A stretch of 39,904 nucleotides of DNA, from positions 1 through 39,904 of IMG/VR virus record IMGVR_UViG_3300020190_000138. One strand, given 5' to 3'. A program made the position numbers and the translations under genes. Below, piece by piece: positions 6,869-29,973 of this stretch (position 1 is its first letter; every line of letters starts with the position of its first letter). The notes beneath the pieces were generated by a model. That model worked only from the letters and a program-made list of their open reading frames with translations, was not told the DNA's origin and ran no database searches. Source of the DNA: a virus.

Positions 6869-7675
6869 ATGGATTTACAAGCAATCAAAGCAAAGCTAAA
6901 TGCATTGCAAGCTAAGCCAGGTGTCAATCAACGTAAGGATTTGACTGAAACAATGTGGAGACCAACTACAGGTAAGTACACAATCCGTATTGTACCTTCG
7001 GCTTTCGACAAAACATCTCCGTTTAAAGAGTTGTTTATTCACTATGGTATTGGAAATGCCAAAGTAATGATTTCTCCTATTAATTTTGGAGAGAAAGACC
7101 CTATTGTTGACTTTGCAAATGAGTTAAAAAAAGGTCCATATGATAGAGATAATTGGGCTCTATCTAAAAAACTTCAACCTAAAATGAGAGTCTTTGCACC
7201 AGTAATTGTACGTGGTGAAGAAAACAAAGGCGTTCGTTTGTGGGAATTTGGTAAAGAAGTTTACATGGAATTATTGGCAATTGCAGAAGATGAAGACGTA
7301 CAAGATTACACAGATCCTGTAAATGGACGTGATTTGACTGTAGAAAAGTTGGATGCAGCTGCAGCAGGTAATTCTTTTGGTAAAACAAACATTCGTGTTA
7401 AAACCAAAACCACATCACTATCCGAAGATGCAAATCAAGTAAAGACTTGGTTAACAACTCAACCAAATCCAGCAGATCAATTTAAACGTTTTGATTATGA
7501 CACTATGAAAACTCGTTTAGTTGAGTTCTTGGATCCAGAAGCTGCTCAAGAGCCTGCAGCTGCAGTTGAACCTGAAGTATCGGAATCAACTACAGAAGCT
7601 CCTAAAGCAAACTACACTTTAGAGGCTAAGCCTAAGAAGTCAGTAGACGATGAGTTTGATGCACTATTCAGTTAA
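6869..7675 (+). CDS. gp32: ssDNA-binding protein, T4 gp32-like
   Basis: This 268-residue protein matches gp32-type phage single-stranded DNA-binding proteins. A basic N-terminal arm is followed by an OB-fold region with the WRPTTGKYTIRIVPS start, a FKELFIHYGIG segment, and a WEFGKEVYMELLAIAED segment near residue 125. An Ala/Glu-rich linker (about 215-245) leads to the acidic tail SVDDEFDALFS. In gp32 such a tail recruits replication partners. It coats ssDNA during replication and recombination. Base usage is more GTT/CGT-rich than neighbours, as expected for a highly expressed gene, and its own promoter lies just upstream. UvsX follows after 15 bp. Confidence 0.87.
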   Translation: MDLQAIKAKLNALQAKPGVNQRKDLTETMWRPTTGKYTIRIVPSAFDKTSPFKELFIHYGIGNAKVMISPINFGEKDPIVDFANELKKGPYDRDNWALSKKLQPKMRVFAPVIVRGEENKGVRLWEFGKEVYMELLAIAEDEDVQDYTDPVNGRDLTVEKLDAAAAGNSFGKTNIRVKTKTTSLSEDANQVKTWLTTQPNPADQFKRFDYDTMKTRLVEFLDPEAAQEPAAAVEPEVSESTTEAPKANYTLEAKPKKSVDDEFDALFS

Positions 7676-10204: not shown

Positions 10205-10236
10205 ATTAAAATAGATTATATTAAATAAAGGAGAGG
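10192..10236 (+). promoter_or_regulatory. AGTTGCA-N18-TATATT promoter and strong ribosome-binding site of the helicase gene
   Basis: AGTTGCA at 10192-10198 differs at one base from the family upstream box; TATATTAAA at 10217-10225 follows after 18 bp. Immediately downstream AAGGAGAGG at 10228-10236 is a strong Shine-Dalgarno sequence four bases before the ATG at 10241. Such a sequence is unusual for a Bacteroidota-type system, where the anti-Shine-Dalgarno is normally occluded. Confidence 0.68.
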
Positions 10237-14027: not shown

Positions 14028-14492
14028 ATGGCAAAATTTATTTCGAGTAAGTTATTTGACGGTTATAGTACTATCTTTAGACAATGGAAAGCAGAGGGTA
14101 CTCACTGTAAGTATATTCACGGATATGGTATCTCCTTTAGAGTTTATTTTGAAGGAGATTTAGATGAGAGAAACTGGGTATGGGATTTCGGAGGTATGAA
14201 AAGATCTCAAGGTAAGATTGATGGAAAGAGTCCTAAAGAGTGGATGGATTATATGTTCGATCACACTTGCTTAGTAGCAGAAGATGATCCAGGTATTAGT
14301 GGATTTAAAACTATGGATTCTTTAGGAGTTATTCAATTAAGACTTTTGCCTAATGTAGGCGCAGAGAAATTTGCAGAGTTCCTATATAGTAAACTAAATC
14401 CTTTAGTAGTAGAAGAAACTAATGGAAGAGTTAAAATAATTAAAGTAGAGTTTTTCGAAAATGAAAGAAACTCTGCTACGTATATTCCCTAA
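14028..14492 (+). CDS. queD: QueD-like 6-carboxytetrahydropterin synthase homologue
   Basis: This 154-residue PTPS-fold protein keeps the catalytic Cys27 and His31 in CKYIHGYGISF, DFGGMKR at 53-59, the FDHTCL block with His79, and a C-terminal VEFFENERNSATY that matches the family's glutamate strand. Canonical QueD has HGH and an upstream His as zinc ligands; here the second His of HGH is Tyr33 and the upstream position reads FRQW, so zinc binding looks altered. In the preQ0 pathway QueD turns dihydroneopterin triphosphate into carboxytetrahydropterin for QueE. It is driven by its own promoter and lies in a window with QueE, FolE and a DpdA-like enzyme. Confidence 0.8.
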   Translation: MAKFISSKLFDGYSTIFRQWKAEGTHCKYIHGYGISFRVYFEGDLDERNWVWDFGGMKRSQGKIDGKSPKEWMDYMFDHTCLVAEDDPGISGFKTMDSLGVIQLRLLPNVGAEKFAEFLYSKLNPLVVEETNGRVKIIKVEFFENERNSATYIP

Positions 14493-14507: not shown

Positions 14508-14514
14508 GGAGGAA
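14508..14514 (+). promoter_or_regulatory. Strong Shine-Dalgarno before the small gene at 14518
   Basis: GGAGGAA lies four bases before the ATG at 14518. Such a full Shine-Dalgarno is rare in the window, where most genes start after A-rich sequence. Confidence 0.6.
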
Positions 14515-14517
14515 ACT

Positions 14518-14757
14518 ATGAAGTGTATAAAAGCAGTAAAGGAAACCAAGCACTACAAACTTGGAGAAATTAGAAGAACTGATAATCAAGATGCTGAGGA
14601 TAAAGTAAATAGCGGAGTGTTTCAGTACATTGGCAAGGAAGAATGGAAAAAAGAAGTTAGAGATCTAGTAAGACCAGAACCAAAGAAAGAAAAGACGGTA
14701 GAGGAAGATCTTACAATTGCAGAGAAACAACTTAAGAGAAAGAAAAAATCTAAGTAA
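14518..14757 (+). CDS. Small charged protein of unknown function
   Basis: This 79-residue protein begins MKCIKAVKETKHYKLGEIRR, has a compact N-terminal half, and a Lys/Glu-rich C-terminal half ending KKKKSK. It resembles small basic phage proteins of unknown role. The start is fixed by the strong ribosome-binding site. A gap of about 135 bp with a tandem repeat follows. Confidence 0.68.
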   Translation: MKCIKAVKETKHYKLGEIRRTDNQDAEDKVNSGVFQYIGKEEWKKEVRDLVRPEPKKEKTVEEDLTIAEKQLKRKKKSK

Positions 14758-14893: not shown

Positions 14894-15367
14894 ATGAGCT
14901 ACTCGAGATGGTCAAGTAGTAGGTGGTATACCTTTTGGAGTTCTACTTGGAGTACTGATATGCAATATAAATTTCCTACAAATAAGTTGAGACGCAGTCA
15001 AGTGTTTGAAATCTGTGACATGCCAAGTTACTGTATAACCTACGGTGACTTGGTAGACAGATCTCGTTCGTCAGTATTACGTGAAGTAGAGGAACTTTTT
15101 GCAAAAGATTTTACCTATACACCATCAGAGTATAACGAAGAAAGTGGAAAGTTAGAATATAAAGAAACTGAAATACTCCCAGGTAAAAAACCTACTTGGG
15201 AAGAGTTGAACGAATTACAAGATTACTTTAGCAGTTTTCTAAATGATGTTGATGAACACTTTAAGACTTGGAACTTTTTTAAGTATGAATGGTTGTATCC
15301 TATTAGAAATAAGATTATATTCAGGTATAAAAAATTAAAACAAAAATATGTCAAAGATAGACCCTAA
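14894..15367 (+). CDS. Protein of unknown function with Trp/Ser-rich N-terminus
   Basis: This 157-residue protein starts with an unusual Ser/Trp/Tyr-rich stretch (SRWSSSRWYTFWSSTWS, residues 4-20), then a polar region with an ICDMPSYCITYGDL segment, acidic helices, and a basic tail FRYKKLKQKY. No known domain is recognised. Its last 20 bases overlap the QueE gene, so the two are likely co-translated. Confidence 0.7.
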   Translation: MSYSRWSSSRWYTFWSSTWSTDMQYKFPTNKLRRSQVFEICDMPSYCITYGDLVDRSRSSVLREVEELFAKDFTYTPSEYNEESGKLEYKETEILPGKKPTWEELNELQDYFSSFLNDVDEHFKTWNFFKYEWLYPIRNKIIFRYKKLKQKYVKDRP

Positions 15368-16178
15368 TAAACTATTAATATCAAGTGACTTCTACTCTGT
15401 CCAAGGTGAAGGTATTTCGTCTGGAATACCTTCCTATTTTGTTAGATTAGGTATTTGTAACCTAACTTGCGGTATGAGCCGTAAGTATGCTAATGCCTTA
15501 GAGAAAGCAAAATTATTAGAAGACGGAGAAATATTCGTAGGTGATCTTCACGCAGAAGGTAAAGCAACTTGGACTTGCGATAGTACTTCTCAATGGTTGT
15601 GGAGAGGTGAAGATAGAGATTTTCAGTATCTAATCGATAGATGGAAAGAGCAAGGAGTTTACGAAGATATTAAGAACGGTGATATTCATATTATTTGGAC
15701 TGGTGGTGAACCTACAATTAAAGGACACCAAGAAGCAATCTATAATTTCTTAACTTATTGGTACGAGCAAGATGCTTCGATTACGCCTTATAATGAAATA
15801 GAAACTAACGGTACTGTTTATATTGAAGATAATTTGTTTAAGGAATTGAATCAAATTAACTGCTCACCTAAACTAGCTAATTCAGGTATGACTAAAAAGC
15901 AACGGTTTATTGAACCTGCTCTTAGACGTATTATGGAACACAGTAATTATCAATTTAAGTTTGTTATCAGTACAGAAGATGATATTAAGGAGATTTTTGA
16001 AGACTTTGTAAAACCTTTAGATATTCCTTTGAAGAATATCGTCTGTATGCCTGGTTTAGATGATGTTGAAGATTTTGAAGAGCGTACTCAATTCTGTTTA
16101 GAAATGGCTAAAAAGTATCGTTTCCGTGGTTTAACTAGATTGCATATTGCAGCTTGGAATAAAACATTAAACGTATAA
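15348..16178 (+). CDS. queE: 7-carboxy-7-deazaguanine synthase, radical SAM (QueE)
   Basis: This 276-residue protein shows the QueE start FYSVQGEGISSGIPSYFVRLG, the cluster cysteines Cys37 and Cys41 in ICNLTC, IWTGGEPT (the radical SAM GGE motif) near residue 117, and EIETNGT and NCSPKL segments. The third cluster cysteine is probably Cys77 in WTCDST, after an insertion: the spacing is CX3CX35C instead of the usual CX3CX2C. It converts carboxytetrahydropterin to 7-carboxy-7-deazaguanine. The start ATG at 15348 overlaps the preceding gene by 20 bp. Confidence 0.9.
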   Translation: MSKIDPNKLLISSDFYSVQGEGISSGIPSYFVRLGICNLTCGMSRKYANALEKAKLLEDGEIFVGDLHAEGKATWTCDSTSQWLWRGEDRDFQYLIDRWKEQGVYEDIKNGDIHIIWTGGEPTIKGHQEAIYNFLTYWYEQDASITPYNEIETNGTVYIEDNLFKELNQINCSPKLANSGMTKKQRFIEPALRRIMEHSNYQFKFVISTEDDIKEIFEDFVKPLDIPLKNIVCMPGLDDVEDFEERTQFCLEMAKKYRFRGLTRLHIAAWNKTLNV

Positions 16179-18628: not shown

Positions 18629-19273
18629 ATGGAACTTTTGAAAAAAGCCAATGGGAATTTAGTAAGAACAGAAGAGGAAAAGCAAAAGATGGTAGAAGAA
18701 GCAACTGTACACTACGGTAACTTCTTAACTTCTTTAGGATTTGACTGGGCAGCTGATCCAAATTCAGCAGACACACCAAGACGTGTATCGAAAGCTTGGG
18801 TATATGATTTAATTAAAGGATCTAACAGCGAAGCACCAAGTGTTACAGCTTTTCCAAATGACGAGGGGTATACAGGTTTAATTTGCCAAACACGCATTCC
18901 AGTTGTTAGTTTATGCGCTCACCATAATTTAGGATTCACGGGCTTTTGCCACGTAGCCTATATTCCTGGTAAAGAAAAAAGTGGTATGGTAGTAGGATTG
19001 AGTAAGTTGAATCGTATTGTAGACTTTTACTCACGTAGACCTAATATTCAAGAATCCTTGACTAAACAAATACACGATGAAGTAGATAGATTATGTGTAG
19101 GTAACAGAGGTGTTGCTGTAGTAATCGAATCGCAGCATAATTGCGTTAAATGTCGTGGAATTAAACATGATAGTGTTATGAAAACATCTCAAATGTCAGG
19201 ATATTTTTGGACTAATGAGGTAGGAACTCGCGCTGAGTTTTTTAATCTTATCGACCAAAGCAGAACTGCTTAG
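18629..19273 (+). CDS. folE: GTP cyclohydrolase I
   Basis: This 214-residue protein carries the full FolE signature: DTPRRVSKAW, SLCAHHNLGFTG with zinc ligand Cys96 and His98/His99, GLSKLNRIVDFYSRRPNIQE, and SQHNCVKCRGIKHDSVMKTS with the second zinc Cys. It makes 7,8-dihydroneopterin triphosphate from GTP, the first step toward 7-deazaguanines. Length is normal for the family. It shares the window with QueD-like, QueE and DpdA-like proteins, so it most likely feeds DNA modification rather than folate synthesis. Confidence 0.95.
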   Translation: MELLKKANGNLVRTEEEKQKMVEEATVHYGNFLTSLGFDWAADPNSADTPRRVSKAWVYDLIKGSNSEAPSVTAFPNDEGYTGLICQTRIPVVSLCAHHNLGFTGFCHVAYIPGKEKSGMVVGLSKLNRIVDFYSRRPNIQESLTKQIHDEVDRLCVGNRGVAVVIESQHNCVKCRGIKHDSVMKTSQMSGYFWTNEVGTRAEFFNLIDQSRTA

Positions 19274-19310: not shown

Positions 19311-20123
19311 ATGAAGAAAGTAAAATACGGCTATATTAGCCCTGTAAAGTACCAGCACCTCATTCCAGAGAGTGCTGACTTTCACTTAATTTTAGCTCAC
19401 CTACTAGATAATCAAGAATATGTTGACTTTTATAAAGAGAAGATTAAACGAGGTGATCAAGTAATTTTAGATAATAGTGCTTTTGAATTTAAAAGAGCTC
19501 TATCAGCTACAGAAATTCTTGGCTTTATTGAACGTAGTGGTATACAACCAACTTATGTAGTAGCTCCTGATTATCCATTCTTAGACTGGAAAGAAACAAT
19601 GGCTTCTACGTTGAGCTTTATTCAACAAGTAAAAGATCAACCGTACAAGATTATGGCTGTTCCTCAAAGTGTTAAAGGTGATGTTAAAGGATGGATGCAA
19701 TGTTATCAAGGAATGTATGACAACCCGAATATTTCAATTATTGGCATGTCTATTCTTGGTATTCCTAATGCATTTTGCTCTTTAACAGGAACTGACGACA
19801 TTGCATTTAATAGAGTTTATGCAACACAATATATTCTAGAAAATACAACAGTTAAACCAGGTAGAAAGTGGCACCACTATTTAGGCTTGGGAGGAGGTCC
19901 TAGAGAAATATTACTACAGAGAGGATTAGAGTTAATGGATAGTAATGATAGTTCATCTCCGATCTGGCATGGTTATTTAGGTATTAAATTTGATGATAGT
20001 TTATGGGGATTAAAAGATGGTAAGACAAAAAGAGAAGTAGATTTTAGTGTTCCATTTTTTAATAGCAGTGAAGAATCTATTAAGTTTAATATTGGTTACA
20101 TAGAAAATCTTATTCTGAAATAA
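19311..20123 (+). CDS. dpdA: DpdA-like DNA-guanine transglycosylase
   Basis: This 270-residue protein resembles phage members of the tRNA-guanine transglycosylase superfamily. Candidate catalytic acids are Asp54 in VILDNSAFE and Asp87 in VVAPDYPF. KIMAVPQS and SIIGMSILGIP are strands of the barrel, and a HHYLGLGGG segment comes later. TGT proper is about 380 residues with zinc cysteines near the end; these are not seen here. DpdA enzymes replace guanine in DNA with a 7-deazaguanine, which blocks restriction enzymes. The presence of FolE, QueD-like and QueE supports that role. The stop overlaps the next ATG. Confidence 0.8.
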   Translation: MKKVKYGYISPVKYQHLIPESADFHLILAHLLDNQEYVDFYKEKIKRGDQVILDNSAFEFKRALSATEILGFIERSGIQPTYVVAPDYPFLDWKETMASTLSFIQQVKDQPYKIMAVPQSVKGDVKGWMQCYQGMYDNPNISIIGMSILGIPNAFCSLTGTDDIAFNRVYATQYILENTTVKPGRKWHHYLGLGGGPREILLQRGLELMDSNDSSSPIWHGYLGIKFDDSLWGLKDGKTKREVDFSVPFFNSSEESIKFNIGYIENLILK

Positions 20124-20528: not shown

Positions 20529-20690
20529 ATGCAACAAAAAGAATCAAAAACAAACTGGCATTTTAGAATAAGTATCTTGAAATCCTTATTGAGACTTGGT
20601 GCTTGTATAGCTTTGTGGGAAGGTGCTTACGGTACGGCAGCACTAGGATTTGCAGGAGCAGAGGTGTTGGGAATTGTGGAAGAATTGTAG
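20529..20690 (+). CDS. Small hydrophobic protein of unknown function
   Basis: The ATG at 20529 opens a 53-residue frame ending TAG at 20688-20690. The product starts with a polar MQQKESKTNWHFRIS, then ILKSLLRLGACIALWEGAYGTAALGFAGAEVLGIVEEL, one or two short membrane-like helices. It begins two bases after the phosphoribosyltransferase. The bS21 promoter sits in its 3' end. Confidence 0.6.
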   Translation: MQQKESKTNWHFRISILKSLLRLGACIALWEGAYGTAALGFAGAEVLGIVEEL

Positions 20691-20698
20691 ATATTTAT
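20665..20698 (+). promoter_or_regulatory. TGTTGGG-N18-GATATT promoter for the bS21 gene
   Basis: A variant upstream box TGTTGGG at 20665-20671 and GATATTTAT at 20690-20698, with the exact 18-bp spacer of the family. The ATG of bS21 follows at 20704, so the mRNA leader would be very short. Confidence 0.6.
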
Positions 20699-20703
20699 TA
20701 TAT

Positions 20704-20889
20704 ATGATTATAGTTGATATAAGTAAATATAAATCTATAGAACAAGCTTTGAAAGTTTATAAAAATAAGCATTCAAAGATAGGGATAGTCCCAGAACTCC
20801 GTGATAGACAATACTTTACTAAAAAATCAGTAAAGAAGAGAGAAGAGTTGTTGAATGCCGTCTACAAAGAGAGAAAATATAAAAGGTAA
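20704..20889 (+). CDS. rpsU: Ribosomal protein bS21
   Basis: The frame is open from a TTG at 20650, but the ATG at 20704 gives a 61-residue protein that matches bS21 end to end: MIIVDISKYKSIEQALKVYK, then ELRDRQYFTKKSVKKREELL and a basic tail. bS21 binds the 30S platform next to the 3' end of 16S rRNA. From memory of work on Flavobacterium, bS21 there helps hide the anti-Shine-Dalgarno sequence, with a tyrosine at position 54; this protein has Tyr54 too. A phage copy could alter which mRNAs are translated. It has its own promoter. Confidence 0.88.
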   Translation: MIIVDISKYKSIEQALKVYKNKHSKIGIVPELRDRQYFTKKSVKKREELLNAVYKERKYKR

Positions 20890-20891
20890 GT

Positions 20892-21902
20892 ATGAAGTTA
20901 CAGAAATTCAACAAACTAAAAAATGAGTTCGAAATATTTAGTTTTGAGAGAAATTTTAATTCACTCAGCACGACTCTCTATTATTTTTCCTTTTTAGGGA
21001 ATATATTCTCAATTTTATTTTCGTACTTCTTTATTAAAGACATAACAAACTCAATTCCAGTTTTATTTCAAGGACAGGATATTTTCTTTTCTATCTTTAT
21101 TATCCTCTTTATGACAGGATACGAGTTGTTCAAGAGATTTTCTTTTGAGCAATTAATGTTTTCTTTTATCAGGGAAGGAAAAGCAAAAGTAAATAATATC
21201 TCAGGAGCAATTTTATGTATGGGATTAGTAGTAGGATCTTTTTACCTATCTTTGAATGGTGCTCACCGTTTGATAGATACTTCTGAAACTATAGAAATTA
21301 AAACTGATTCTCTATTTTCTACTAAAGCAGATTCTATAGCAAAGTATTACGATAAAGAAATAATCTTCTATAGAAGTCAAGTAGCAAGGACCAGAGTAGA
21401 TAGAAAGTATCGTGACTCTATAGTTAACGAACTACAAATAGCAAAAGATAATAAAATAAAAGAAATAGAGAATAAAACAGATACTAAACTACAATCTCAG
21501 ACTTCTAAAGTACAACAAAACAGTCAAGCCTTTGCTATAATGGTTTCTTTTCTAGAGTTTATTATTCTCTTAGGAGTAGGATTTGCAAGTTACTACAAGT
21601 ATACTTCCTACTTAGAAATGAAGACTCTACTTACTACTCCTAAGTTTAAGCAATTAGACTTACATTTACAGTTGCTTAAACTTTACTATCAAAATGGTAG
21701 AAAGAAAGAAGGAGATCAAGTAATTGCAAAAACCAAGTTTTTTGCTCTAGCATCAGCAGCTAAGTTAGGATGCACACAGAGAGAATTGAATAACTTTATA
21801 GCTTTGTGCTCTGAGTTGGAGATAGCAGTTGGAGACAAACGTAAAAAATCTTATAATATAGGGTACGAAAAAGCTTATCAATTAATAGAAAATAGAGATT
21901 AG
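20892..21902 (+). CDS. Multi-pass membrane protein with a predicted coiled coil
   Basis: This 336-residue protein has hydrophobic segments near residues 28-48, 60-80, 102-120 and 210-232. A charged coiled-coil-like region of about 85 residues (around 125-205) lies between the third and fourth. The C-terminal ~100 residues are soluble and helical with a Lys/Arg-rich stretch. Two copies of AGTTGGA occur in its last 100 bp, one of which starts a promoter. I do not recognise the family. It starts two bases after bS21. Confidence 0.7.
   Translation: MKLQKFNKLKNEFEIFSFERNFNSLSTTLYYFSFLGNIFSILFSYFFIKDITNSIPVLFQGQDIFFSIFIILFMTGYELFKRFSFEQLMFSFIREGKAKVNNISGAILCMGLVVGSFYLSLNGAHRLIDTSETIEIKTDSLFSTKADSIAKYYDKEIIFYRSQVARTRVDRKYRDSIVNELQIAKDNKIKEIENKTDTKLQSQTSKVQQNSQAFAIMVSFLEFIILLGVGFASYYKYTSYLEMKTLLTTPKFKQLDLHLQLLKLYYQNGRKKEGDQVIAKTKFFALASAAKLGCTQRELNNFIALCSELEIAVGDKRKKSYNIGYEKAYQLIENRD
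21827..21860 (+). promoter_or_regulatory. AGTTGGA-N18-TATAAT promoter for the dCTP deaminase-family gene
   Basis: AGTTGGA at 21827-21833 and TATAATATA at 21852-21860, 18 bp apart, in the 3' end of the membrane protein gene. The next ATG is at 21905. Confidence 0.65.
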
Positions 21903-25641: not shown

Positions 25642-25759
25642 TTTTTTAAAAACTTATATATTTATTATTATAAAAAGAGATACAAGTAGGTCTCTAGTTA
25701 CGAACAACAAAAAATATATTGTTAACCGCTTACCAAAAGGAAGCACAAACTAAAAAACT
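25642..25759. other. Gene-free gap before the Hsp20 gene
   Basis: This AT-rich 118-bp gap holds a near-palindrome AGTTTTTTAAAAACT at its start, and AGAGA (25676-25680) and TCTCT (25691-25695) that could pair in a small hairpin. TATATTTATTATTATA follows the palindrome, but no AGTTGGA box stands 18 bp before it. I cannot assign a promoter with confidence. Confidence 0.4.
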
Positions 25760-26200
25760 ATGGGAATTAGTACTCCATTCTTTGTCGATTCATTCGACTT
25801 TCTATGGCGAGATTTACTCGCAGATCAAGCGATTTTCAGAGACGCAACAACAAAGACTCCACATCCTATTGACATTTATAAGACTGATGACGGTATTCAG
25901 TTAGAAGTCGCTGCAGTAGGTTTAGATTACGAAGATATAGATATCTTAGTAGAAGGAGAGCAATTACGTATTAAGTATCAAGCAAAACCAGAGGATAGAG
26001 CAGTAATGCTGAAAGGTATTAAGAAAGGTTCTTTTGATATTACCTGGAAAATTTCAAACAAGTTAGATTTAAACAAATTAACAGCGACCCTGAATAGAGG
26101 GTTGTTAACGTTACATATTCCAACTGCTGAAGGACAATTAGTAAGAAAAATTGAAATCCAAAATTCAGACAAACCAAAGTTGGAAAATAAGAAAAAATAA
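25760..26200 (+). CDS. Small heat shock protein (Hsp20 / alpha-crystallin)
   Basis: This 146-residue protein has an alpha-crystallin domain. Strands include IDIYKTDDGIQLEVAAVGLDYEDIDILVEG (about 37-66), GSFDITWKISNKLDLNKLTATLNRGLLTLHIP (about 90-121) with the family's A-x-L-x-x-G-L-L-x-L-x-I-P ending, and a C-terminal I-x-I motif in RKIEIQ. It holds unfolded proteins for refolding. GroES and GroEL follow, so this is a chaperone block. The promoter for the next genes begins in its last codons. Confidence 0.9.
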   Translation: MGISTPFFVDSFDFLWRDLLADQAIFRDATTKTPHPIDIYKTDDGIQLEVAAVGLDYEDIDILVEGEQLRIKYQAKPEDRAVMLKGIKKGSFDITWKISNKLDLNKLTATLNRGLLTLHIPTAEGQLVRKIEIQNSDKPKLENKKK

Positions 26201-26211
26201 GTTATAATTAA
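26178..26211 (+). promoter_or_regulatory. AGTTGGA-N18-TATAAT promoter for the GroES/GroEL operon
   Basis: AGTTGGA at 26178-26184 and TATAATTAA at 26203-26211, 18 bp apart. The upstream box lies in the Hsp20 3' end. It would drive the small gene at 26234 and then GroES and GroEL. Confidence 0.75.
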
Positions 26212-26233
26212 AGAGACCTACTAAATTTCTGTT

Positions 26234-26425
26234 ATGTTACCTTCATTGATTAAAGTCGCAGACGGATTGTACAAAGTTGTGAGAGTTATTAACTTTCAGG
26301 ATAACTTAGATGTCCAAGCTTGGAAAGATTGGTTAGGAGCAACTCACTCTTTTAGAAAAGAGGATAAACTATACTTCGTAGAGGAAGTTCAAGTATTAGA
26401 ATTTGAAGAAATAAAAATAATGTAG
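26234..26425 (+). CDS. Small protein of unknown function leading the groES-groEL operon
   Basis: This 63-residue protein (MLPSLIKVADGLYKVVRVINF, then WKDWLGATHSFRKEDKLYFVEEV) is short and beta-rich. It resembles nothing I can name. It begins just after the promoter and ends one base before groES, so it is in the chaperonin operon. Confidence 0.62.
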   Translation: MLPSLIKVADGLYKVVRVINFQDNLDVQAWKDWLGATHSFRKEDKLYFVEEVQVLEFEEIKIM

Positions 26426-26426
26426 A

Positions 26427-26720
26427 ATGAATGAAAAATTAATTCCGCTAAACGGGCATGTTATATTAAAGCCTGTAGAAGAAGGTGAAACAACTTATGG
26501 CAATATTGTATTACCTGATTTAGGAAAAGAAAAACCAGAAATGGGAGAAGTAGTTGCAGCAAGCGATACTTACAATTGGCATACTGGTGCTTACTATCCA
26601 TCTCATTTAGAAGTTGGAGATAAAGTATTAATACCTAAATTAGGAGCAATGAAAATTACTATTGAAGGAGAAGATTATTATATAACAAAAGAAACTGAAG
26701 TATTAGCCAAAGTTAAGTAA
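26427..26720 (+). CDS. groES: Co-chaperonin GroES (Cpn10)
   Basis: This 97-residue protein has the GroES layout: IPLNGHVILKPVEEGE, the mobile loop YGNIVLPD whose Ile-Val-Leu binds GroEL, EMGEVVAAS, then LEVGDKVLIPKLGAMKI and EGEDYYITKETEVLAKV. An insertion (NWHTGAYYPSH) lengthens the roof loop relative to bacterial GroES. GroEL starts two bases later, so the phage carries a matched pair. Confidence 0.9.
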   Translation: MNEKLIPLNGHVILKPVEEGETTYGNIVLPDLGKEKPEMGEVVAASDTYNWHTGAYYPSHLEVGDKVLIPKLGAMKITIEGEDYYITKETEVLAKVK

Positions 26721-26722
26721 TT

Positions 26723-28351
26723 ATGAGTACAAAATTAACATCAGGAGCAGAGTTAAAGAATAAACTCTTAGCAGGTATTAAACAATTAAATCAAGCAGTT
26801 AGTTCAACATTAGGTCCAGGAGGTAGAACAGTCTTAATCGAAGATAAAGTAAATGGAACTAAGGTAACCAAAGATGGTGTAACAGTAGCTAAAGCATTTC
26901 ACGATCTATCAGATGAAATTGAGAATATCGGTGCACAGTTAGTAAAGCAAGTTAGTATCAAATCTGCAAACGAAGCAGGCGATGGTACAACTACTTCTAC
27001 ACTCCTTACAGCTACTATGGTTGAGGAAGGTTTAAAGTATATTACTCAAGGAGTTAATCCAGTAGAAGTGAAAAAATCTATGGATAAAATCTCTAAAGAA
27101 GTAATTAAGAATTTAAAAGAAGCAGCATTGGGTATTGATAGTGAGGAGCAAGTAAGACAGGTTGCTACTATTTCTGGTAATAATGACGAAGAGGTAGGGA
27201 ACTTAATTGCAACAGCTATTGAGAAAGTAGGTAGAGATGGTATTATTTCTTTAGAAGAAAGTAAGACAGGGGAACAAAAACTAGAAGTAGTAGAAGGTTT
27301 ACAATTTGATAGAGGTTATAAATCTCCTTATTTCGTTACAGATAACAACACGATGCAAGCAGTTCTAGAAGATCCTTACGTACTACTTTATGATGGTATG
27401 ATAGCTTCAGCACAAGATTTATTACAGGTACTAACAAAAGCAAATACGGATAACAAATCCTTATTGATTGTAGCTCAAGAGTTTGGAGAAGAAGCATTAG
27501 CAGTATTGATTGTAAACAAAATGAGAGGTATTGTTAAAGTTGTAGCAGTAAAAGCACCAGACTACGGAGAGAGAAAAACTTTACTGATGGAAGATATGGC
27601 TATACTAACTGGCGGTCAATTATTATCAAAAGAGAAAGGTCATAAGTTAGATAAGTTAGCACCAAACGTTTTAGGTCAATATTTAGGTAATGCAAGAAGA
27701 GTAACCGTAGATAAGGATACTACTACTATTGTAGACGGTAAAGGAGATTCTGAAGTAATTGCAGCAAGAGCAGAAGAAATAAAGGACCATATTGAAAAAG
27801 CGACTACTCCATACGAGAAAGAGAAATTACAGGAAAGATTAGGAAAGTTAATTGGTGGGGTAGCAATTATTTCCGTAGGTGGTAATTCAGATGTAGAGAT
27901 TAAAGAGAAGAAAGATAGAGTAGAAGATGCTTTATATGCAACCAAAGCTGCATTAGCAGAAGGAGTAGTTGAAGGTGGTGGTATTGCTTTGATTAAAGCA
28001 TTTAATAAGTTAGGAGATTTTAATCCTGAAAAGTATAACTCTGTAGCATGGAACGTAATTAAAGCAGCATGCTATGCTCCTTTTCTAACTATTCAGAAGA
28101 ATACAGGTACGGATAATCCCTATCCATTTCTATCTGAAACGCTAGCTTCTAAGTTAGATTTCGCTACGTTTGACGCAAAGATGGATAAAGTAGTAAATGC
28201 TAGAGAAGTAGGATTACTAGATCCAGTAAAAGTTACTAGGTTAGCATTAGAGAATTCAGTATCTGTTGCAGGAACTATCTTAACTACAGAATCGGTTATC
28301 TTTGATAAAAAAGATAAAAAAACTGAAGAACCTTCTCAAGAAATGTTTTAA
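26723..28351 (+). CDS. groEL: Chaperonin GroEL (Cpn60)
   Basis: This 542-residue protein is full length. The ATP site is intact: TLGPGGR (29-35), GDGTTT with Asp87, and RVEDALYATKAALAEGVVEGGG carrying the catalytic aspartate equivalent to E. coli Asp398. The apical domain has the YKSPYFVTDN segment used for substrate and GroES binding. The usual GGM tail is absent; it ends SQEMF. Phage GroEL probably helps fold capsid or tail proteins. Most phages that encode chaperonin parts carry only GroES-like genes. Confidence 0.95.
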   Translation: MSTKLTSGAELKNKLLAGIKQLNQAVSSTLGPGGRTVLIEDKVNGTKVTKDGVTVAKAFHDLSDEIENIGAQLVKQVSIKSANEAGDGTTTSTLLTATMVEEGLKYITQGVNPVEVKKSMDKISKEVIKNLKEAALGIDSEEQVRQVATISGNNDEEVGNLIATAIEKVGRDGIISLEESKTGEQKLEVVEGLQFDRGYKSPYFVTDNNTMQAVLEDPYVLLYDGMIASAQDLLQVLTKANTDNKSLLIVAQEFGEEALAVLIVNKMRGIVKVVAVKAPDYGERKTLLMEDMAILTGGQLLSKEKGHKLDKLAPNVLGQYLGNARRVTVDKDTTTIVDGKGDSEVIAARAEEIKDHIEKATTPYEKEKLQERLGKLIGGVAIISVGGNSDVEIKEKKDRVEDALYATKAALAEGVVEGGGIALIKAFNKLGDFNPEKYNSVAWNVIKAACYAPFLTIQKNTGTDNPYPFLSETLASKLDFATFDAKMDKVVNAREVGLLDPVKVTRLALENSVSVAGTILTTESVIFDKKDKKTEEPSQEMF

Positions 28352-29446: not shown

Positions 29447-29533
29447 GCCTCGGTGGTGGAATTGGTAGACACGCAGGACTTAAAATCCTGTTCGCCGAAA
29501 AAGCGAGTGCGAGTTCGATTCTCGCCTGAGGCA
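29447..29533 (+). tRNA. tRNA-Leu(TAA)
   Basis: An 87-nt class II tRNA. The acceptor stem GCCTCGG pairs with CTGAGGC, with one G-T pair. The D arm is GTGGAATTGGTAGACAC, the anticodon stem-loop CAGGA-CTTAAAA-TCCTG gives anticodon TAA, the variable arm is a TTCGCCGAAAAAGCGAGT-type hairpin, and the T arm is GCGAG-TTCGATT-CTCGC. The discriminator is A, and CCA is not encoded. It reads UUA, a common leucine codon in these AT-rich genes. Confidence 0.95.
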
Positions 29534-29565
29534 CTTAGATATTTATTATTAGTTCTTTAACATAT

Positions 29566-29973
29566 GGGGAAAACTTGGAATTGATTGCTATGCGATTAAT
29601 AATACCACAGGTAGAGATACGTACTAGATCTCTTTAAACTCTGTACAGACAATAAATGACGAAATGTCAACAATGACCTTCGACGACCTTTTGGCGTTCG
29701 TAGGCGCTGAAGAGTATGCATACGCAGCCTAGTAAGCAACGGGTGAGTAACCTAGGAACAGAACTACTCTGAGTATTCACGATCGACTCATTAAATAAGG
29801 ACTGTGGATTATGGCATTCTTGCTTGAGCCATGTAATTAAGCAAGCGGTGGATCCGACCACGAAAGGTCAGCCCTTAGGGTGCAGAAGATTGTCTCTTCA
29901 GTACTAAACCTGTGAGACGTTGGTATTATGAATACTTAGTAAGACGTGGGTTCGAATCCCACTTTCTCCACCA
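29566..29973 (+). ncRNA. ssrA: Transfer-messenger RNA (tmRNA)
   Basis: The tRNA-like ends are GGGGAAA (29566-29572) pairing with TTTCTCC (29963-29969), a T arm GTGGG-TTCGAAT-CCCAC (29946-29962), discriminator A and an encoded CCA (29971-29973). The tag frame at 29703-29732 reads GAEEYAYAA then TAG TAA. Bacteroidota tags are usually GENNYALAA, so the length and first residue agree. It rescues stalled ribosomes and tags their products. Total length 408 nt is typical. The resume codon GGC is inferred from comparison with host tags. Confidence 0.9.

Follow-up and report, generated by a model that had tools for sequence, protein, structure and literature searches.

In Flavobacterium johnsoniae, rpsU, the gene for ribosomal protein bS21, is autoregulated via an extended Shine-Dalgarno (SD) sequence, and bS21-lacking ribosomes translate it best; the protein itself is exchangeable, joins late in 30S assembly, and stacks its Tyr54 on A1534 of the 16S rRNA (PMC9976891). 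Chen et al. (2022) described a class of phage bS21, from freshwater-lake phages of Bacteroidetes, that is expressed together with the structural genes (PMC9723584). The existence of phage bS21, its Bacteroidota hosts, the conservation of Tyr54 and its late expression are thus already published, and McNutt et al. (2023) already weigh phage bS21 against host autoregulation (PMC9976891). The bS21 of Pelagibacter phage HTVC008M enters E. coli ribosomes (PMC6375957).

Here, we analyzed the linear virus fragment IMGVR_UViG_3300020190_000138, all 39,904 bases of which are referred to as the window, and the bS21 gene that it carries (Table 1). A first-pass annotation of this DNA had stated that other phages carry bS21, as many aquatic phages are known to do, and that bS21 and its Tyr54 are tied to the hiding of the anti-SD in Flavobacterium, as is documented (PMC9976891; PMC9723584). 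It had also called the effect of phage bS21 in Bacteroidota open, which is fair with regard to experiments, although the hypothesis itself has been published. New in the present analysis are a family member from another genomic context, a promoter element shared with related phages, and the uniform lack of an autoregulatory SD.

Table 1. Features of the bS21 locus and related sites in the window
Feature	Position	Strand	Remarks
bS21 (rpsU-like) CDS, 61 aa	20704..20889	+	PF01165, TIGR00030, PDB 9i5v/7jil
Codon for Tyr54	20863..20865	+	From the translation; invariant in alignment A2
ATATTTATT promoter-like element	20691..20699	+	First base 13 nt from the bS21 ATG
Same ATATTTATT element	25658..25666	+	Upstream of the Hsp20 gene 25760-26200
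Same ATATTTATT element	29539..29547	+	27 nt upstream of the tmRNA gene
53-aa ORF	20529..20690	+	Directly upstream; stop adjoins the promoter-like element, 13 nt before bS21
336-aa ORF	20892..21902	+	Begins 2 nt after the bS21 stop; no family match
SD-like AAAGGAGAGG	10227..10236	+	Before the DnaB-like helicase gene; -9.1 kcal/mol
SD-like GGAGGA	14508..14513	+	Before ORF 14518-14757; -9.5 kcal/mol

Results

Identity and conservation of the phage bS21

The bS21 reading frame is complete from ATG to TAA, as had been annotated, and its product exceeds the curated cut-offs of both Pfam PF01165 (45.7 bits, E 5.5e-12; cut-off 27) and NCBIfam TIGR00030 (39 bits; cut-off 28.95), with Bacteroidota-type bS21 chains as its best PDB matches. 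An in-frame TTG at 20650 would extend the protein; the relatives begin at the Met equivalent to position 20704. The AlphaFold2 model (mean pLDDT 85) contains helices at residues 12-26, 28-35 and 41-60, and a Foldseek search with this short, extended chain returned zero PDB matches. The C-terminal region, residues 43-64 in F. johnsoniae bS21, corresponds to residues 43-61 of the window protein, where the helix 41-60 is predicted. The two proteins are alike in the three predicted helices and in Tyr54 (PMC9976891; PDB 7jil), share the ALK..K and KxSVxxR blocks, and are 44% identical over the aligned part. Toward the N-terminus, the window bS21 reads VYKNK where the host copies read R(F/Y)KRK. The HTVC008M protein is likewise borne by a myovirus, but is of the proteobacterial type and belongs to a phage with an alphaproteobacterial host, whereas the window protein is of the Bacteroidota type (PMC6375957).

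The Tyr at position 54, which the first-pass annotation had pointed out, is seen in the translation and does not vary in alignment A2, which comprises 25 phage and bacterial sequences. Across 56 sequences, comprising 55 distinct phage copies and F. johnsoniae bS21, column 54 is aromatic in 52 (Tyr 44, His 8), and the rest have Arg (3) or Lys (1). Comparison with host bS21 at residues contacting the 16S 3′ end, which had been proposed as a check, finds Tyr54 kept in the phage copy.

The nearest relatives of the window bS21 are in other uncultured contigs and are at most 72% identical to it. In the tree, it groups with 11 other phage copies (SH-aLRT 98), on an alignment whose 64 columns are too few to name the donor host. 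A recent transfer from a known host was considered and rejected, because the nearest bacterial bS21 is only 57% identical and the phage copies cluster together. The dN/dS ratios, which cover related phage copies since the window bS21 itself is too distant for dS (saturated), were mostly 0.02-0.35 among unsaturated pairs, with 0.61 for the highest pair. These results show that bS21 is under purifying selection in the related phages.

The gene might instead be a passenger acquired from a host and now without function, as its absence from Flavobacterium phage immuto, and hence its dispensability in the group, would allow. However, it is intact, its family occurs in dozens of contigs and is under purifying selection, and it is at most 72% identical to its nearest relative, which makes the passenger reading scarcely credible. 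The window gene is rather more probably a functional Bacteroidota-type bS21 carried by a myovirus, an assessment made jointly with that of the role proposed for it below.

Genomic setting and host

The DnaB-like helicase and the chaperonin of the window are 52% and 51% identical, respectively, to those of immuto (NC_055915, Immutovirus), and its RecA-like, exonuclease, DNA polymerase, QueD and FolE genes match the same phage; identities in the replication and chaperonin genes range over 37-64%. Judged from these similarities, the window is a fragment of an immuto-related phage, and the phage is a myovirus. Immuto, a 160-kb myovirus, differs from the window in that no bS21 was found in its whole 160,410 bases and no tmRNA in its first 150 kb. 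The kinship with immuto points to a Flavobacteriales host. Two other routes to the host were abandoned: the tmRNA similarity is confined to the 3′ end, and a comparison of the window DNA with 396 genomes of one order was swamped by GroEL conservation. Among cultured Bacteroidota phages, no named isolate matched the bS21; the matches were huge-phage metagenome assemblies and one faecal contig.

The phages of Chen et al. resemble the window in the bS21 family, the predicted host phylum and the aromatic residue 54 (PMC9723584). In those phages, however, bS21 lies antisense inside a TerL-portal-protease-MCP block, whereas the window gene lies outside such a block, co-directional with its neighbors among phosphoribosyltransferase, dCTP deaminase and DNA polymerase genes. 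The 53-aa ORF before it has no Pfam or PHROGs match, and the 336-aa ORF behind it is probably co-transcribed with bS21.

The window also encodes a tmRNA at 29566-29973 (Rfam RF00023, 66 bits; tag AEEYAYAA), adjoined by a tRNA-Leu at 29447-29534, and a cluster of Hsp20, GroES and GroEL, including the full chaperonin pair, at 25760-28351 downstream of bS21. Another bS21-bearing phage contig, L103, likewise encodes a tmRNA (7278-7632; tag ANEYAVAA), located about 1.1 kb beyond the bS21 gene. This company favors the idea that the phage bS21 is a matter of dosage, a spare copy that makes up for a late-infection loss of host rpsU mRNA or protein and leaves specificity and host feedback unchanged: the tmRNA, tRNA-Leu, GroES/GroEL and Hsp20 nearby suggest a general upkeep of translation and folding, and the purifying selection would agree. 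Taken alone, however, such maintenance fails to explain why the phage copies form separate lineages that diverge in the N-terminal helix. We regard a plain dosage role as a close rival of the reading that we prefer, with a substantial though lesser share of the probability.

Elsewhere in the window, the genes at 14028-14492, 15348-16178, 18629-19273 and 19311-20123 comprise QueD-like, FolE, DpdA-like and QueE-like ones; the DpdA-like protein is 25% identical to immuto DpdA, and the QueE-like one, that at 15348, was recognized by motif only. The set suggests 7-deazaguanine modification of the phage DNA.

A promoter-like element shared with related phages

The short gap 5′ of bS21 contains ATATTTATTAT at 20691-20701, and intergenic + strand copies of ATATTTATT occur in the window only before bS21, Hsp20 and the tmRNA. 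In the first 150 kb of immuto, where 5% of the bases lie between annotated genes, ATATTTAT has 30 sites on the + (coding) strand, 21 of them intergenic, and four on the − strand. The genes 3′ of it include those for terL, tail sheath, tail tube, baseplate hub, tail spike and PhoH, and some copies lie directly 3′ of terminator-like hairpins. Two thirds of the intergenic copies (14/21) fall within 78-150 kb, the structural-gene part, and seven within the first 60 kb, including one at groES. For two contigs of the Chen et al. phage type (L123 and L140), in which MCP, protease, portal and terL were identified, structural genes, portal and protease among them, are preceded by a TATTTAT core at a distance of about 20 nt, and ATATTTAT precedes the antisense bS21.

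ATATTTAT was found within 45 nt of the start in 15 of 46 non-redundant phage bS21 genes (shuffles: mean 0.8, largest 4), a figure that overstates the independent cases because related phages are not independent, and before none of 153 bacterial bS21 genes. The contigs with the nearest bS21 relatives (L097-L099) are without it. The signal resides in the exact ATATTTAT, its strand bias and its intergenic placement: TATTTATTAT with one mismatch occurs at chance frequency across the whole window, and an EM motif search on all window leaders returned just an A-rich start context and a purine-rich word. In the literature searched, we found no description of ATATTTAT(A/T), which resembles a late promoter element of Immutovirus. 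The text of Chen et al. contains no analysis of the phage bS21 promoter (PMC9723584), and the element is described here for the window and its relatives.

A second promoter-like element, GATTATATTA, was considered and rejected as the bS21 promoter, being absent there. It has four exact copies in the window (5036, 10214, 14853 and 14874), all intergenic and on the + strand, which precede genes 5064, 10241 (DnaB-like) and 14894.

Because ATATTTAT is common to bS21 and to the structural genes of related phages, bS21 of the window is likely transcribed in the late class, a timing that rests on the promoter element here and on transcripts in Chen et al. The position of the window bS21 amid nucleotide and replication genes, away from structural ones, is a counter-point. 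In the window, as in L112, L114, L121 and L123, the element lies 12-13 nt from the ATG. In a T4-late-like geometry, this spacing would place the transcription start at or next to the ATG, yielding a near-leaderless bS21 message.

The claim that bS21 follows a family promoter, of which ATATTTATT/ATATTTAT is likely the source, therefore holds for a strand-specific intergenic element supported by immuto, but not for a conventional one: neither a sigma-70 nor a Bacteroidota TTG/TAnnTTTG promoter was found at the bS21 start.

SD pairing of bS21 leaders and of window starts

For all sets, a single method was used to calculate how strongly the leaders pair with the 16S tail ACCUCCUUUCU; by this method, a perfect extended SD gives -17.6 kcal/mol. 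The main rpsU copies of Flavobacteriaceae had a median of -17.1 kcal/mol, with 35 of 36 at or below -13 kcal/mol, a regulation threshold that PMC9976891 computed by its own method on a similar, not identical, scale. In contrast, the median for phage bS21 leaders was -1.0 kcal/mol, and none of the 55 distinct copies reached that threshold. The window leader, at -1.6 kcal/mol, lacks the extended SD by which F. johnsoniae rpsU is autoregulated. The only fairly strong SD of a phage bS21 (-12.1 kcal/mol) is that of L265, a 735-kb uncultured phage, at position 1501.

These results suggest that, in a Flavobacteriaceae-type host, the phage bS21 would escape the rpsU feedback. With a Saprospiraceae-type host, the contrast would vanish, since in the order containing Saprospiraceae just 2 of 26 bacterial bS21 genes have a strong SD. 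Phage genes are generally SD-less, so that the missing SD at bS21 is also the default state. Several Flavobacteriaceae genomes have a second chromosomal bS21 (type KHRNIKVMQNLRDGQFF) without an SD beside the SD-bearing main copy (loci L235, L239, L240, L242, L244, L246, L249 and L250), and in G011 this second bS21 adjoins a sigma-70 gene (L094 602-1465).

Across the window, 4 of 60 starts pair at -9 kcal/mol or lower (200 dinucleotide shuffles: mean 0.87, largest 4). The mean over the 60 starts is -2.2 kcal/mol, compared with -2.0 in the shuffles and -3.5 at internal ATGs, and no start lies below -10.3 kcal/mol, whereas host rpsU reaches about -17 kcal/mol in the same calculation. The SD-like sites of the window are thus at most a small excess over chance, and the two at 10227 and 14508, even if genuine, are weak. 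Of the earlier statement that a few genes have strong SDs while most do not, the existence of the two sites and the SD-less majority stand, and the strength does not.

The first-pass annotation had further proposed that exchanging bS21 could change which messages are read. In such an SD switch, the phage protein would free the anti-SD or alter access to it in favor of the few SD-bearing phage genes. The two SD-like sites would give such a switch something to act on, and Y54A and deletion mutants of F. johnsoniae bS21 do raise SD-dependent translation (PMC9976891). However, the phage protein keeps Tyr54, no site is as strong as those to which bS21-depleted ribosomes respond, and the starts pair less than internal ATGs, on top of the near-chance frequency. 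The data do not support the proposal, and we consider it very unlikely.

Discussion

In the explanation that we favor with some confidence, transcription of bS21 would start from the late-class phage promoter ATATTTATT and its translation would proceed without an SD, so that its message would be readable by complete ribosomes. The phage protein would then supplant or supplement host bS21 at the 30S platform; its entry into ribosomes is likely, because bS21 is exchangeable and a phage bS21 enters E. coli ribosomes. Given an intact Tyr54 and C-terminal helix, the 16S 3′ tail with its anti-SD should stay tucked away, and the ribosomes would remain complete and committed to SD-less messages, which are nearly all messages of phage and host. 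Since host rpsU is best translated by bS21-lacking ribosomes, phage bS21 made outside the feedback should also depress host bS21 synthesis. One published result counts against this explanation: E. coli ribosomes with a phage bS21 were nearly inactive, at about 5% of wild type (PMC6375957).

Selective translation has also been proposed, in which the divergent N-terminal helix, lying over the mRNA path, steers ribosomes to phage mRNA (PMC9723584). The proposal was drawn from divergent N-terminal residues, and the VYKNK of the window protein is of that kind. Conversely, we found no feature separating phage from host messages, the leaders being SD-less in both, and the E. coli test revealed a general loss of activity and no selectivity (PMC6375957). 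We judge selective translation unlikely, although worth keeping in view.

A stronger form of the favored explanation, which we put forward only tentatively, is that a feedback-blind phage bS21 takes over the host circuit: made from a near-leaderless late message independent of the anti-SD, the protein would fill the 30S subunits, remove the bS21-lacking ribosomes that read rpsU, silence host bS21 synthesis, and keep the ribosomes on SD-less messages.

bS21 is the ribosomal protein most common in phages, and in Bacteroidota it governs both access to the anti-SD and its own synthesis. The SD-less phage copies, together with the late-type element, make the vague idea of ribosome hijacking specific, in that phage bS21 would escape, and may shut, the host feedback loop.
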